The notes under the pieces: model-generated | The model's input: only the letters and a program-made list of their open reading frames with translations | The model's database searches: none | What the model was told of the DNA's origin: nothing | Position numbers and translations under genes: made by a program | In this document: positions 11,980 through 62,286 of the stretch, piece after piece | How the letters are laid out: every line of letters begins with the position of its first letter | How positions within the stretch are numbered: position 1 is the first letter of the stretch | NCBI RefSeq assembly: GCF_013389665.1 | Contig: NZ_CP058316.1 | Coordinates: 2,294,001 to 2,358,000 of the forward strand | DNA: 64,000 bases | Direction: 5' to 3' | Source of the DNA: Microbacterium oleivorans | Lineage (GTDB): Bacteria > Actinomycetota > Actinomycetes > Actinomycetales > Microbacteriaceae

Positions 11980-13344
11980 TCAGAACGGCGGAGCATCCGG
12001 CGGAGCGTCGGCGCGGGGTGGTGCGCCGCCGCTGCCCGGGGGTGGGGCGATCGCCGCGGTGAAACACACGGCGGGTATCGGGATGTCCTCGCGGTAGACC
12101 CGGCCGAGCGGTGAGGTCCACACGAGCACCCCGCCCCCGACCTGCCGGACCTCCCACTTCGTGAACTGCTTCATCGAATGGTGTCGCTGGCAGAGGTGGG
12201 CGAGGTTGAAGATATGGGTGTGGCCGCCCTTGGCGTAGTCGACGGTGTGGTCGATCTCGCAGCGGATCGCGGCCCGTCGGCAGCCGGGGAACCGGCAATG
12301 CTGGTCGCGCGCGGCGAGGAGTCGTCGCATCGCCGGCGCCGGTCGGTACGTGTCGACCTCGACCGGGGTGCGGGTGACGGGATCGATGAAGAGCCGGTCC
12401 CACGTCATGGTCTGCGCGGCGAGCCGGCGTACCGTGTCGGCGTCCACCAGCGTCGCTCCGACGGCCTCGGCAGGATGGTCGTCCGCGCCGGTGAGGGTGT
12501 CGGACGTGATCACGACCTGCACGCGAGCGCGGATCGCACCGAGCGGGCCGGCCTGATCGGTGCCGTGAGTCGGGTCGACGACCGGAGCGCCCCCGAGGAC
12601 GAGGTCTGCCAGGGCATCAGCGCGGAGCTGGTCCATGGTGCGAGTGTCGGGCTCGGGCTCGGCGGCATCCACTCGGGCGTCCTTCACCGACTGCCCCATC
12701 TGCGTCAGCCGGTCGAGCATTCCCGTCGCGATTACCGAGGGCAGGCTCGCGATCACCTCCGACATTCCGTCGGAGCCGTGAACCAGCCGGACGCCGCGGC
12801 ACGCCGCAGCCTCGCGGTGCCGCTCGCTGAACGACTGGGGATGAATCTGCTCAGCGAGCGCCTGCAGTGAGTTGCGCACCCGCGACGGGATATCGCGGGT
12901 GCAGACATCGATGGCGGCCCGCTCGAACTCCGGCCGCACGTCTTCGGGCACGATCGCGCCGACCTTCACGACCGCGTCGACGTGGCCTCGCTCGATACGG
13001 CGCTGCTCCCACGCCGCGAACACGAGCGGATAGCCGTCGACGATGGTCATGGCGTGGTCGATGTCGCCCTGCAGCCGCCGGTCGGTCAGTCGCGCCATGC
13101 CTGCGGCCTCAGCGGCGACGGAGCGCAGCTCCATATCGGAGGCCATGCCCCGGATGCCGGTGCTTCGTGCTTCTCGCAGTGCCGATCGGCCCAGCTCTGC
13201 AAGCGCTCGCACCGAGGCGATGTCGCTCGCGTGGGCGAGGTCGAGCGCGTGGGCGTAGCCCGCGAACGCCATGGCGTGCGGCGACGCGAACGGCGAGGGA
13301 TCGGGCTGCGCCATGTCTGCGCCCGTCTCGTCCGTCGATGCCAT
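11980..13344 (-). CDS. DUF222/HNH endonuclease-like protein (13E12 repeat family), copy 1
   Basis: A 454-residue member of the actinobacterial 13E12 family: an N-terminal helical DUF222 domain (SVRALAELGRSALREARSTG, RGMASDMELRSVAAEAAG) and a C-terminal HNH module with zinc-type Cys residues (CRFPGCRRAAIRCEIDHT, then GGHTHIFNLAHLCQRHHS). The H-N-H residues needed for metal-dependent DNA cleavage are intact. The start at 13344 is fixed by a conserved promoter (GATAAT 6 nt upstream, TGTCGGTG 8 nt further) also present before copy 2 at 60787. Family members are scattered in multiple copies and their role is unsettled; the promoter suggests induction by DNA damage. Confidence 0.9.
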   Translation of the reverse strand: MASTDETGADMAQPDPSPFASPHAMAFAGYAHALDLAHASDIASVRALAELGRSALREARSTGIRGMASDMELRSVAAEAAGMARLTDRRLQGDIDHAMTIVDGYPLVFAAWEQRRIERGHVDAVVKVGAIVPEDVRPEFERAAIDVCTRDIPSRVRNSLQALAEQIHPQSFSERHREAAACRGVRLVHGSDGMSEVIASLPSVIATGMLDRLTQMGQSVKDARVDAAEPEPDTRTMDQLRADALADLVLGGAPVVDPTHGTDQAGPLGAIRARVQVVITSDTLTGADDHPAEAVGATLVDADTVRRLAAQTMTWDRLFIDPVTRTPVEVDTYRPAPAMRRLLAARDQHCRFPGCRRAAIRCEIDHTVDYAKGGHTHIFNLAHLCQRHHSMKQFTKWEVRQVGGGVLVWTSPLGRVYREDIPIPAVCFTAAIAPPPGSGGAPPRADAPPDAPPF

Positions 13345-13350
13345 GTTCCC

Positions 13351-13372
13351 ATTATCGCAGGCACCACCGACA
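13351..13372 (-). promoter_or_regulatory. RecA-NDp/PafBC-like DNA-damage promoter of HNH copy 1
   Basis: On the minus strand TGTCGGTG (13365-13372), 8 nt, then GATAAT (13351-13356), then 6 nt to the ATG. This matches the mycobacterial LexA-independent damage promoter consensus TTGTCRGTG-N8-TANNNT, except that the hexamer begins G. The same arrangement recurs before HNH copy 2. Confidence 0.7.
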
Positions 13373-13995
13373 TTCGTATCATACATGTGTTCTATTCTGC
13401 AAAGCTCACCGGAGCCCGTCGATGTGGAGGAAGCGCCGGGGTGCCGCCGCATCCGTCGCCTCCGCGACCCGGTCGCGTACGGGCGTTGTGTACCGATGGC
13501 GATGCTTCTCGACGTCGCGTCCCCATCGATCTCATCGCCGACATCGATGGGGATCGATTGCGCGGACCGCCAGGACGGGCTTCTGATCCGCTCGGCACCG
13601 CGCGCCTCCGACCGGGTGCTGTACGCCGCGACCGCGACCGCGACCGATTCTGGGGCGGTGGAGCTCTACGGGTGCTCAGCGCCGTGTCGAGGCGTTCAGA
13701 CCTCCGGCCAAGAGACCGACGAGTCGAACAGGCTCATCAGTCCGGTCGACCGGCAGCGATCAGTGCCAGCCTTACGAGCTGCGCACGGCGCCGACGGTGA
13801 ACGGGCGATCCTGACGATCGAGGACCATCACAGCGCGCGAGGCGTGATCGTACGGGCGCAGCCGGGGCGTGTCCCTTGTGGAGCCGTGCGCGCACGGCTC
13901 GGGGTCGTCATGCGTGCGCAGCGACACAGGGACTCTGCTGCGCAGACGCTACCCCGCGCGAACAGCATGCGCGCCGCGCGGCCTACGCTCGTCAG
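13373..13995. other. Gene-poor region of about 620 nt
   Basis: Frames stay open for long distances on the plus strand here, but their translations are Arg-rich with scattered Cys, have no ribosome-binding site and no family look. They read as G+C-driven open frame. Short repeats (ACCGCG, ATCGAT) occur. A decayed gene is possible but cannot be demonstrated. TACGCT at 13984-13989 is the -10 of the next gene. Confidence 0.4.
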
Positions 13996-60681: not shown

Positions 60682-60758
60682 GGCGGGGTGGTGCGCACGC
60701 TCCTCCCCATCGGTGCCTCGCGGTAGAGTTCGCAGTACGTAGATATGTTCTATTGGGG

Positions 60759-60780
60759 TGTCGGTGGGTTCTGCGAGAAT
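60759..60780 (+). promoter_or_regulatory. RecA-NDp/PafBC-like DNA-damage promoter of HNH copy 2
   Basis: TGTCGGTG (60759-60766), 8 nt, GAGAAT (60775-60780), then 6 nt to the ATG at 60787. Same spacing and elements as before HNH copy 1, with a shared GAAC just before the start codon. Confidence 0.7.
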
Positions 60781-60786
60781 AAGAAC

Positions 60787-62286
60787 ATGCAAGCGAACGG
60801 CGGCAGAGGCGACGAGGTGGCAGGCGGGGCGCCGCACGCGGCGGCGTTCGCGGAGTTCGCCCACGCGTTGATGCTGGCGCGTACCGCTGAGATCGCCTCG
60901 GTGCGTGCGCTGGCCCAGCTCGGCCGGTCCGCGCTGCGAGAAGCGCGTCGCGACGGCGTGCGGGGTATGGCCTCCGACATGGAGCTGCGGTCGGTCGCCG
61001 CGGAGGCGGCGGGGATGGCCCGGCGGGGTGACCGGCGGGTGCAGTGGGAGATCGACCACGCGATGACGGTGGTGGATGAGTACCCGGCGATGTTCGCGGC
61101 GTGGGAGCAGCGCCTCGTCACGCGCGAGCACGTCGATGTGGTGGTGAAGGTCGGGCGGGTGGTGCCGGAGGAGGTGCGGTCGGAGTTCGATCAGGCTGCG
61201 GTGGTCGTGTGCCAGCGGGACATCGCGACGCGGGTGGCCGGGGCGTTGCAGAACCTGGCGGAGCGGATGCACCCGCGGTCGTTCTCGGAGCGTCACCGGG
61301 AGGCCGCCGCCGGGCGGTGCGTGCGGTTGTCGCCGGGGGTGGATGGGATGGCGGATCTGTCGGCGACGGTGCCGATGGTGATCGCGGCGGGGATCTACGA
61401 CCGGTTGACGCAGATGGCGCAGTCGGTGAAGGACGCCCGGGCGGATGCCGTGGCGGTGGATGGCGCCGGCGCGGTGGACGGCGCGGGCGCTGGCGCGCAG
61501 GCGGGCGGTGCGGGCGCGGTGGGTGGCGCGGGCGTCAGCGATGGCGCCGCGTTCGGAGTGGATGCCGAACGAGATGCCGGTGCCGCTGCCCCTACCCCTG
61601 ACACCCGGACGATGGATCAGCTCCGCGCGGATGTTCTCTCGGACCTCGTCCTCGGTGGTGCACCCGTCATCGACCCGACCACCGGGGTGGACGGGCGTGG
61701 CGCCCTCGGGGCGATCCGCGCGAAAGTGCAGGTCGTGATCACCGCCGACACCCTCACCGGCAACGACGAACACCCCGCAGAAGCGATCGGCACCGGACTG
61801 GTCGACGCCGACACGGTCCGGGAACTCGCCGGACAGACGGCGACATGGGACCGGATGTTCATCGACCCGATCACCCGCACACCGGTCGAAACCGACGCCT
61901 ACCGGCCATTGCCCGCGATGCGGCGGCTGCTGCAGACCCGCGACCAGCACTGCCGGTTCCCCGGCTGCCGCAGAGCCGCGATCCGATGCGAGATCGACCA
62001 CACCATCGACCACGCCCTGGGCGGTCACACCCACATCTACAACCTCGCCCACCTCTGCCAACGACACCACTCCATGAAGCAATTCACCAGCTGGCGGGTG
62101 GAACAGGCCGGCGGCGGGGTGCTCGTGTGGACCTCACCCCACGGCAGGGTCTACCGAGAAGACATCCCCATCCCCGCGGTCTGCTTCACACCAGAACTTG
62201 CCACACCACCATCCGCACCAACCGGCCCGTCCGGCCCACCCGGCCGAGGCGCCGGCGCACCACCCGACGCGCGACCGCCCTTCTGA
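60787..62286 (+). CDS. DUF222/HNH endonuclease-like protein (13E12 family), copy 2
   Basis: A 499-residue paralogue of the gene at 11980-13344. The DUF222 half (SVRALAQLGRSALREARRDG, RGMASDMELRSVAAEAAG) and the HNH half (CRFPGCRRAAIRCEIDHT, GGHTHIYNLAHLCQRHHS) are nearly identical at the ends. It differs by a low-complexity Gly/Ala/Asp insert of about 45 residues near residue 220-265 (VDGAGAGAQAGGAGAVGGAG). H-N-H and Cys residues are intact. The start is fixed by the conserved leaderless damage-type promoter. Function unsettled for the family. Confidence 0.9.
   Translation: MQANGGRGDEVAGGAPHAAAFAEFAHALMLARTAEIASVRALAQLGRSALREARRDGVRGMASDMELRSVAAEAAGMARRGDRRVQWEIDHAMTVVDEYPAMFAAWEQRLVTREHVDVVVKVGRVVPEEVRSEFDQAAVVVCQRDIATRVAGALQNLAERMHPRSFSERHREAAAGRCVRLSPGVDGMADLSATVPMVIAAGIYDRLTQMAQSVKDARADAVAVDGAGAVDGAGAGAQAGGAGAVGGAGVSDGAAFGVDAERDAGAAAPTPDTRTMDQLRADVLSDLVLGGAPVIDPTTGVDGRGALGAIRAKVQVVITADTLTGNDEHPAEAIGTGLVDADTVRELAGQTATWDRMFIDPITRTPVETDAYRPLPAMRRLLQTRDQHCRFPGCRRAAIRCEIDHTIDHALGGHTHIYNLAHLCQRHHSMKQFTSWRVEQAGGGVLVWTSPHGRVYREDIPIPAVCFTPELATPPSAPTGPSGPPGRGAGAPPDARPPF

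Follow-up and report, generated by a model that had tools for sequence, protein, structure and literature searches.

PafBC-type elements and SOS-box-like sites suggest DNA-damage control of DUF222-HNH genes in Microbacterium oleivorans and its relatives

In mycobacteria, PafBC activated by single-stranded DNA was described to insert between sigma domain 4 and the promoter, with the helix-turn-helix of PafB binding the -26 motif and PafC contacting sigma (PMC11804915). The consensus is given as TGTCGG-N10-TANNNT, with TGTCAG and TGTCAC as variants (PMC8151990). According to a review, RecA-NDp promoters extend to other actinobacteria (PMC8223512), whereas the PafBC motif of M. smegmatis was reportedly not recovered when motifs were searched for in Streptomyces venezuelae (PMC9380542). 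Another closely related system is the LexA SOS regulon, with the 13E12 / HNH genes of M. tuberculosis. A network study placed the HNH genes of the 13E12 family in the LexA regulon and guessed a role in mismatch repair (PMC4181829), five putative HNH endonucleases were found among the RecA-dependent genes after mitomycin C treatment (PMC8151990), and induction by moxifloxacin was observed by qRT-PCR for Rv3074, Rv3776 and Rv0336/Rv0515, HNH homology being noted for Rv3074 and Rv3776 (PMC7911356). The sites at which gene conversion occurs most often in M. tuberculosis include the REP13E12 loci (PMC13061034).

The REP13E12 / 13E12 repeat family resembles the genes studied here in its many dispersed DUF222-HNH copies per genome. 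The named M. tuberculosis REP13E12 / 13E12 genes presumably carry DUF222. Going by its description, P1 Ref, a RecA-dependent HNH nuclease, is similar as an HNH protein active upon DNA damage. Unlike Ref, which is phage-borne, DUF222-HNH is nearly absent from phage and plasmid collections, with matches in 5 of 50,697 phage and 2 of 72,556 plasmid records, none of which covers 80% of the query. These sequence counts would argue against a mobile-element explanation.

The window, which is the whole stretch of 64 kb (64,000 nucleotides) of M. oleivorans DNA analysed here, possesses two DUF222-HNH genes. Their features are as follows.

60700..60709, plus strand: conserved CTCCTCCCCA box, read from the sequence; box found in 42 of 87 loci
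60737..60752, plus strand: weak SOS-box-like site ACGTAGATATGTTCTA, 8/12 (scored by hand), where relatives have better ones; not significant alone
60759..60766, plus strand: -26-type element TGTCGGTG, PafBC / RecA-NDp-like, from sequence and genome-wide pattern counts
60767..60774, plus strand: N8 spacer with TGC as its last bases, resembling an extended -10
60775..60780, plus strand: -10-like hexamer GAGAAT
60787-60789, plus strand: ATG after N6
60787..62286, plus strand: DUF222-HNH gene of 499 aa (homology, alignment), start codon at the predicted transcription start
62275-62283, plus strand: end of this gene encoding the C-terminal -PPF
13423..13432, minus strand: TTCCTCCACA box, CTCCTCCCCA-like
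13379..13394, minus strand: SOS-box-like site TAGAACACATGTATGA, 9/12 (register scoring), weak; not significant alone
13365..13372, minus strand: -26-type element TGTCGGTG
13351..13356, minus strand: -10-like hexamer GATAAT, N8 after TGTCGGTG
13344-13342, minus strand: ATG after N6
11980..13344, minus strand: DUF222-HNH gene of 454 aa (PF02720, E 4e-16)
11983-11991, minus strand: end of this gene encoding the C-terminal -PPF

The minus-strand product matched Pfam DUF222 (PF02720) with 59.6 bits at a cut-off of 24.4. The plus-strand product gave no Pfam DUF222 match, yet it is 72% identical to the minus-strand product. The HNH domain scores of 17.9 and 15.2 bits are both under the Pfam cut-off of 21.4; the D-H, N and H-H positions of the HNH region are invariant across 21 aligned proteins. 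A search of the sequences of solved structures returned weak HNH matches only (ScoMcrA-like 5zmm, E 0.021). The N-terminal domain is predicted to adopt a fold resembling the DNA-binding domain of ParB/Noc/KorB, with weak support from Foldseek. At the C-terminus, both proteins possess a conserved -PPF end behind a variable linker, which resembles the tip of SSB, and the SSBs of the same genome end in -TPF. A -PF-type end was observed in 77 of 80 Microbacteriaceae loci (the best 80 of 170). None of 28 closed class-level proteins ends in -PF, a count which leaves out L182 and L188 as both run off the record end, and the SSB-like tail was rejected on this count as a class-wide trait of the family.

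Both genes start behind the same arrangement, TGTCGGTG-N8-GA[GT]AAT-N6-ATG. An earlier note on this DNA had placed this shared motif at 60759 on the plus strand and at 13372-13342 on the minus strand, and it was located exactly there. With no mismatch allowed, TGTCRGTG-N8-GANAAT occurs only at these two sites within the 64 kb window; with up to two mismatches, six window sites were found against a mean of 1.45 and a largest count of 6 in shuffles. The motif also has a longer form, TTGTCRGTG, and the note had matched both promoters to TTGTCRGTG-N8-TANNNT. This likeness holds for TGTCRG, which is present in both genes, and for its spacing to the -10, which is that of the PafBC regulon. It does not hold for the hexamer, as both -10s begin with G and TGTCGGTG-N8-TANNNT has no match in the 64 kb window, nor for the base preceding TGTC, which is g or a where the quoted motif has T. 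The bases between motif and start, described in the note as poorly conserved, turned out to be constrained in the clade: the 6 bases between -10 and ATG are AAGAAC, AGGAAC or GGGAAC at 9 of the 10 class-A sites of the own genome (class A is defined below), and the TGC before the -10 is likewise constrained.

Compared with the mycobacterial RecA-NDp / PafBC promoters, TGTCRG thus lies at the same distance from the -10, and the window promoters differ in their GANAAT -10 and in their apparently leaderless layout, with 6 bases from -10 to ATG. If transcription starts at the ATG, TGTCGGTG would be situated at -28 to -21 and the -10 at -12 to -7, with no -35 at the usual distance, and the predicted layout is then that of PafBC promoter geometry on a leaderless mRNA.

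Pfam DUF222 recovers 11 copies in the 3.35 Mb genome, the plus-strand window gene being among those missed, and tblastn with the protein of this gene revealed 17 DUF222-HNH paralogues. The earlier note had proposed to search the family across genome and genus, taking absence of the motif before other members as evidence against its idea. Such absence was not observed: TGTC-N12-NANNNT-N6-ATG precedes 16 of the 17 own paralogues, and the element was present in 83 of 91 Microbacteriaceae loci. In the whole genome this pattern has 37 matches, against 1 for the reversed pattern and 1 for the control 4-mer GTCT, which has the same composition and was placed in the same frame. The element-bearing genes were grouped in two classes. 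Class A comprises 10 genes including both window genes, mostly with TGTCGGTG and with G, A or C as the first base of the -10, while class B comprises 6 genes with TGTCGGAG or TGTCCGAG and CATNAT. The 17th paralogue (L235, 1856041, minus strand) has a decayed element CGTCGTAG (CGTC) with a spacer 3 bases shorter, as read by eye. In one paralogue (L236 / L008, 1540285), which has the element TGTCGCAA, the frame stops within the HNH region (392 aa), and tblastn gives a further piece with an internal TGA.

Outside the DUF222 genes, the pattern occurs at 21 genome sites, of which 12 precede repair or replication genes and 9 do not. As assigned by Pfam, these leaderless TGTC sites lie ahead of genes for a DinB-type polymerase (L129), SRAP (L130), a DNA polymerase III delta-like protein (L131), a UvrD-type helicase (L132), RmuC (L134), an AlkZ-like glycosylase (L138), a methyladenine glycosylase (L144), Lhr helicase (L150), UvrB (L191) and, where the name adds interpretation to the Pfam match, RecF (L147), a RadA-like protein (L149) and RarA/MgsA (L192). 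Outside the repair regulon, such sites were found ahead of PhoU (L136), DUF427 (L137), a DksA/TraR zinc finger protein (L146), an esterase (L151), an M4 peptidase (L158) and a putative acetyltransferase-like ORF (L190), and ahead of three doubtful ORFs (L156 and two in L189). The six sites before PhoU to the acetyltransferase-like ORF possibly mark further regulon members or occur by chance. The dinB and lhr genes of the own genome depart from the TANNNT -10 in the same way as the window genes. The recA gene possesses TGTCGGAG-N8-TACCGT about 125 nt upstream of its start codon; its 3.8 kb locus contains two TGTC-N12-NANNNT matches, the second one inside the gene. PafB (WYL, WCX) and PafC (HTH_PafC, WYL, WCX) are encoded side by side, followed by TatC. 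As in mycobacteria, the element is therefore common to recA, uvrB, radA, lhr and other repair genes of a genome that encodes PafB and PafC; unlike there, the DUF222-HNH members use TGTCGGAG, TGTCGTAC and similar forms. PafC matched above the cut-off in 45 of 45 genomes tested, so a genome devoid of PafBC is not available as a negative test.

The Microbacteriaceae set was composed of Microbacterium and Schumannella loci (the best 80 of 170) along with 12 own copies; 91 loci were scored for the motif, L090 being left out as it begins at a contig end. The 83 loci with the element in frame include 71 with N6 and 12 with N7, whereas only 5 of 1820 shuffled regions had it. Among the eight misses, L060 has a spacer 1 base shorter, L080 has TTCAAT, L082 has an SOS-like site only, and L095, L104 and L116 are degenerate. 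L070 and L077 were counted as misses although the motif is visible, since the frame test failed on both. Column conservation was computed on 63 non-redundant loci (less than 70% alike). The columns conserved outside the pattern are A before TGTC (56 of 63), G after TGTC (49 and 53) and A or T. TG two bases ahead of the -10 is conserved in 49 and 53 of 63 loci at its two columns, and A within the -10 in 48. The -10 of the Microbacteriaceae clade is NANNAT rather than TANNNT.

An SOS-box-like site at a fixed place beside TGTC is often present in Microbacterium, a feature which the earlier note overlooked. When scored out of 12 letters against TCGAAC-N4-GTTCGA, a site 22 bases before TGTC reached at least 9/12 in 49 of 87 loci (shuffles 5.5%), with 29 of these 49 at exactly -22, and at least 10/12 was reached in 31 of 87 Microbacteriaceae and own loci (shuffles 0.7%). 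The window genes score 9 and 8, and a score of at least 8/12 is reached by about 27% of shuffles. Most of the own class-A sites are weak, at 7 to 9 of 12 (one reaches 11), and in class B a box TCGAACATGCATTCGA of 11/12 lies across the ATG in 6 of 6 genes. Upstream of the own lexA stands CCGAACGTATCTTCGA, close to AGAACGTATCTTCGATAT ahead of L072. The family thus resembles the LexA regulon of M. tuberculosis, where 13E12 / HNH genes are damage-induced, in having SOS boxes ahead of many DUF222-HNH genes (PMC7911356, PMC8151990, PMC4181829); unlike there, the class-A and class-B SOS sites of the own genome both adjoin a PafBC-like element.

Among 148 sampled genomes of the class, 111 possess DUF222. 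The class sample of 70 loci from 38 genomes consists of 30 loci taken one per genome and 40 chosen from the top of the match list, and it therefore favours strong Pfam matches. Strict TGTCRG-N10-TANNNT was present in 37 of 70 class loci (shuffles 0.07%, control stretches 0 of 70), an SOS box of at least 10/12 also in 37 of 70 (shuffles 2.5%, control stretches 2 of 70), and either of them in 60 of 70 (shuffles 2.6%, control stretches 2 of 70), the controls being 400 bases inside the same genes. By type, 23 loci showed the PafBC motif only, 23 the SOS box only, 14 both and 10 neither, and 30 of 38 class genomes had at least one scored locus with a motif. In 29 class loci the N-terminal part shares 12 to 21% identity with the window protein, so that the link to these promoters has survived longer than most of the protein sequence. 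Within the own order, a search of 59 genomes found DUF222 in 44, and 28 of 30 loci were scorable (L244 and L265 have too little upstream DNA). Eight of the 28 show the strict PafBC motif, 12 the SOS box and 16 either, the loose leaderless pattern adds 4 more, and none of the scored motifs was found at 8 of 28. The corresponding shuffles gave 0, 1.7, 1.7 and 0.4%, and in the control stretches both PafBC patterns were found in 0 of 28 and an SOS-like site in 4 of 28.

We consider it probable, at roughly 80%, that the window genes, together with most of the examined DUF222-HNH family, belong to the DNA-damage response, with PafBC acting at TGTCGGTG and LexA adding to or replacing it in many relatives. 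At the window genes, RNA polymerase carrying the housekeeping sigma would begin transcription at or beside the ATG from a weak GANAAT -10, giving a leaderless mRNA. PafBC, activated by single-stranded DNA, would recognise TGTCGGTG about 28 to 21 bases upstream and replace the missing -35 contact by sigma adaptation, as in mycobacteria. Many relatives have a putative LexA operator that flanks or spans the start and may add to control by PafBC or take its place. Control of the family by damage, through PafBC, LexA or both, is the most likely reading because the element, in a fixed geometry, stands before 16 of 17 paralogues and before repair genes of the same genome, and because PafBC motifs and SOS boxes recur across the class. 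That both regulators bind, where transcription starts, that damage induces the genes and that their products cut DNA are inferences. The earlier proposal of a PafBC damage response is thus favoured by the paralogues, the 12 repair or replication genes, the close form at recA, the pafB and pafC genes and the PafBC motif at 37 of 70 class loci, and it needs to be widened, as it left out LexA, whose boxes are equally common in the class (37 of 70).

The frequency of these boxes raises the question whether LexA alone controls the family, with the TGTC element a side effect of the promoter or due to some other factor. LexA control is published for M. tuberculosis (PMC4181829, PMC8151990, PMC7911356), 23 of the 37 class loci with an SOS box lack the PafBC motif, and the 31 of 87 Microbacteriaceae and own loci at 10/12 or more far exceed the shuffles. 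The converse 23 of 70 class loci, with a PafBC motif and no SOS box, the weak sites of the window genes (9/12 and 8/12) and the occurrence of TGTC at repair genes of the same genome make control by LexA alone unlikely. Recognition of TGTC by some other sigma factor or activator, for instance an ECF sigma with a TGTC -35, would suit the NANNAT -10 of the clade, but the spacing is the one described for the PafBC motif, TGTCGG-N10-TANNNT (PMC8151990), the canonical motif with TANNNT stands at the same position in other families of the class, and recA and repair genes share the element, so we regard this as very unlikely.

Damage control through PafBC and LexA was also weighed against a coding reading of the element and one by mere inheritance. 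Several own class-A genes are open upstream and their frame reads MFxxxVGGxCxNxNM, which would suit a true start further upstream and a conserved V-G-G peptide translated from the motif. Against this, an in-frame stop separates TGTC from the ATG in 19 of 87 loci, 12 of 87 have the 7-base spacer which changes the frame, and the same element precedes unrelated repair genes; on the stops and the two spacer lengths the coding explanation was rejected as highly improbable. Equally hard to believe is that the element was merely inherited with recent gene copies, free of selection. Identity among the own class-A proteins does reach 93% over parts, but when 9 of the own class-A copies are compared, the stretch from -48 to -24 ahead of TGTC averages 31% identity and the motif 77%, and the motifs recur at class-level relatives whose N-terminal parts share only 12 to 21%.

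A literature search, covering mostly papers open without subscription, found no report of DUF222/13E12 genes under PafBC, nor of a class-wide pattern. The promoter is of a known kind, and damage control of the family had already been recognised in one lineage; the breadth, the predicted double control and the exchange of regulators are new. DUF222-HNH (13E12) genes often number 10 or more copies per genome, and the damage link offers a first clue to what they do outside M. tuberculosis, naming the condition under which they should be studied. The family also offers a natural case of one response kept while its regulator was exchanged, and it extends predicted PafBC-type promoters well outside mycobacteria. 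More speculatively, and doubtful as a whole, DUF222-HNH proteins could be class-wide, multi-copy, damage-induced DNA-processing nucleases, in which the ParB/Noc-like domain places the protein on DNA, HNH cuts, and the -PF tail of Microbacteriaceae copies the SSB tip to draw repair partners; damage control would have persisted through switches of regulator from one to the other of LexA and PafBC, and the copies may recombine and undergo gene conversion as a result of the induced cutting. That a nuclease family switched on by damage would recombine among its own copies is an attractive possibility.

A further conserved feature was observed upstream of these promoters. Of 87 loci, 42 have a CTCCTCCCCA-like box at a distance of 58 to 60 bases upstream of TGTC (shuffles 0.4%), and it is often accompanied by CCACA just ahead of the SOS-like site.
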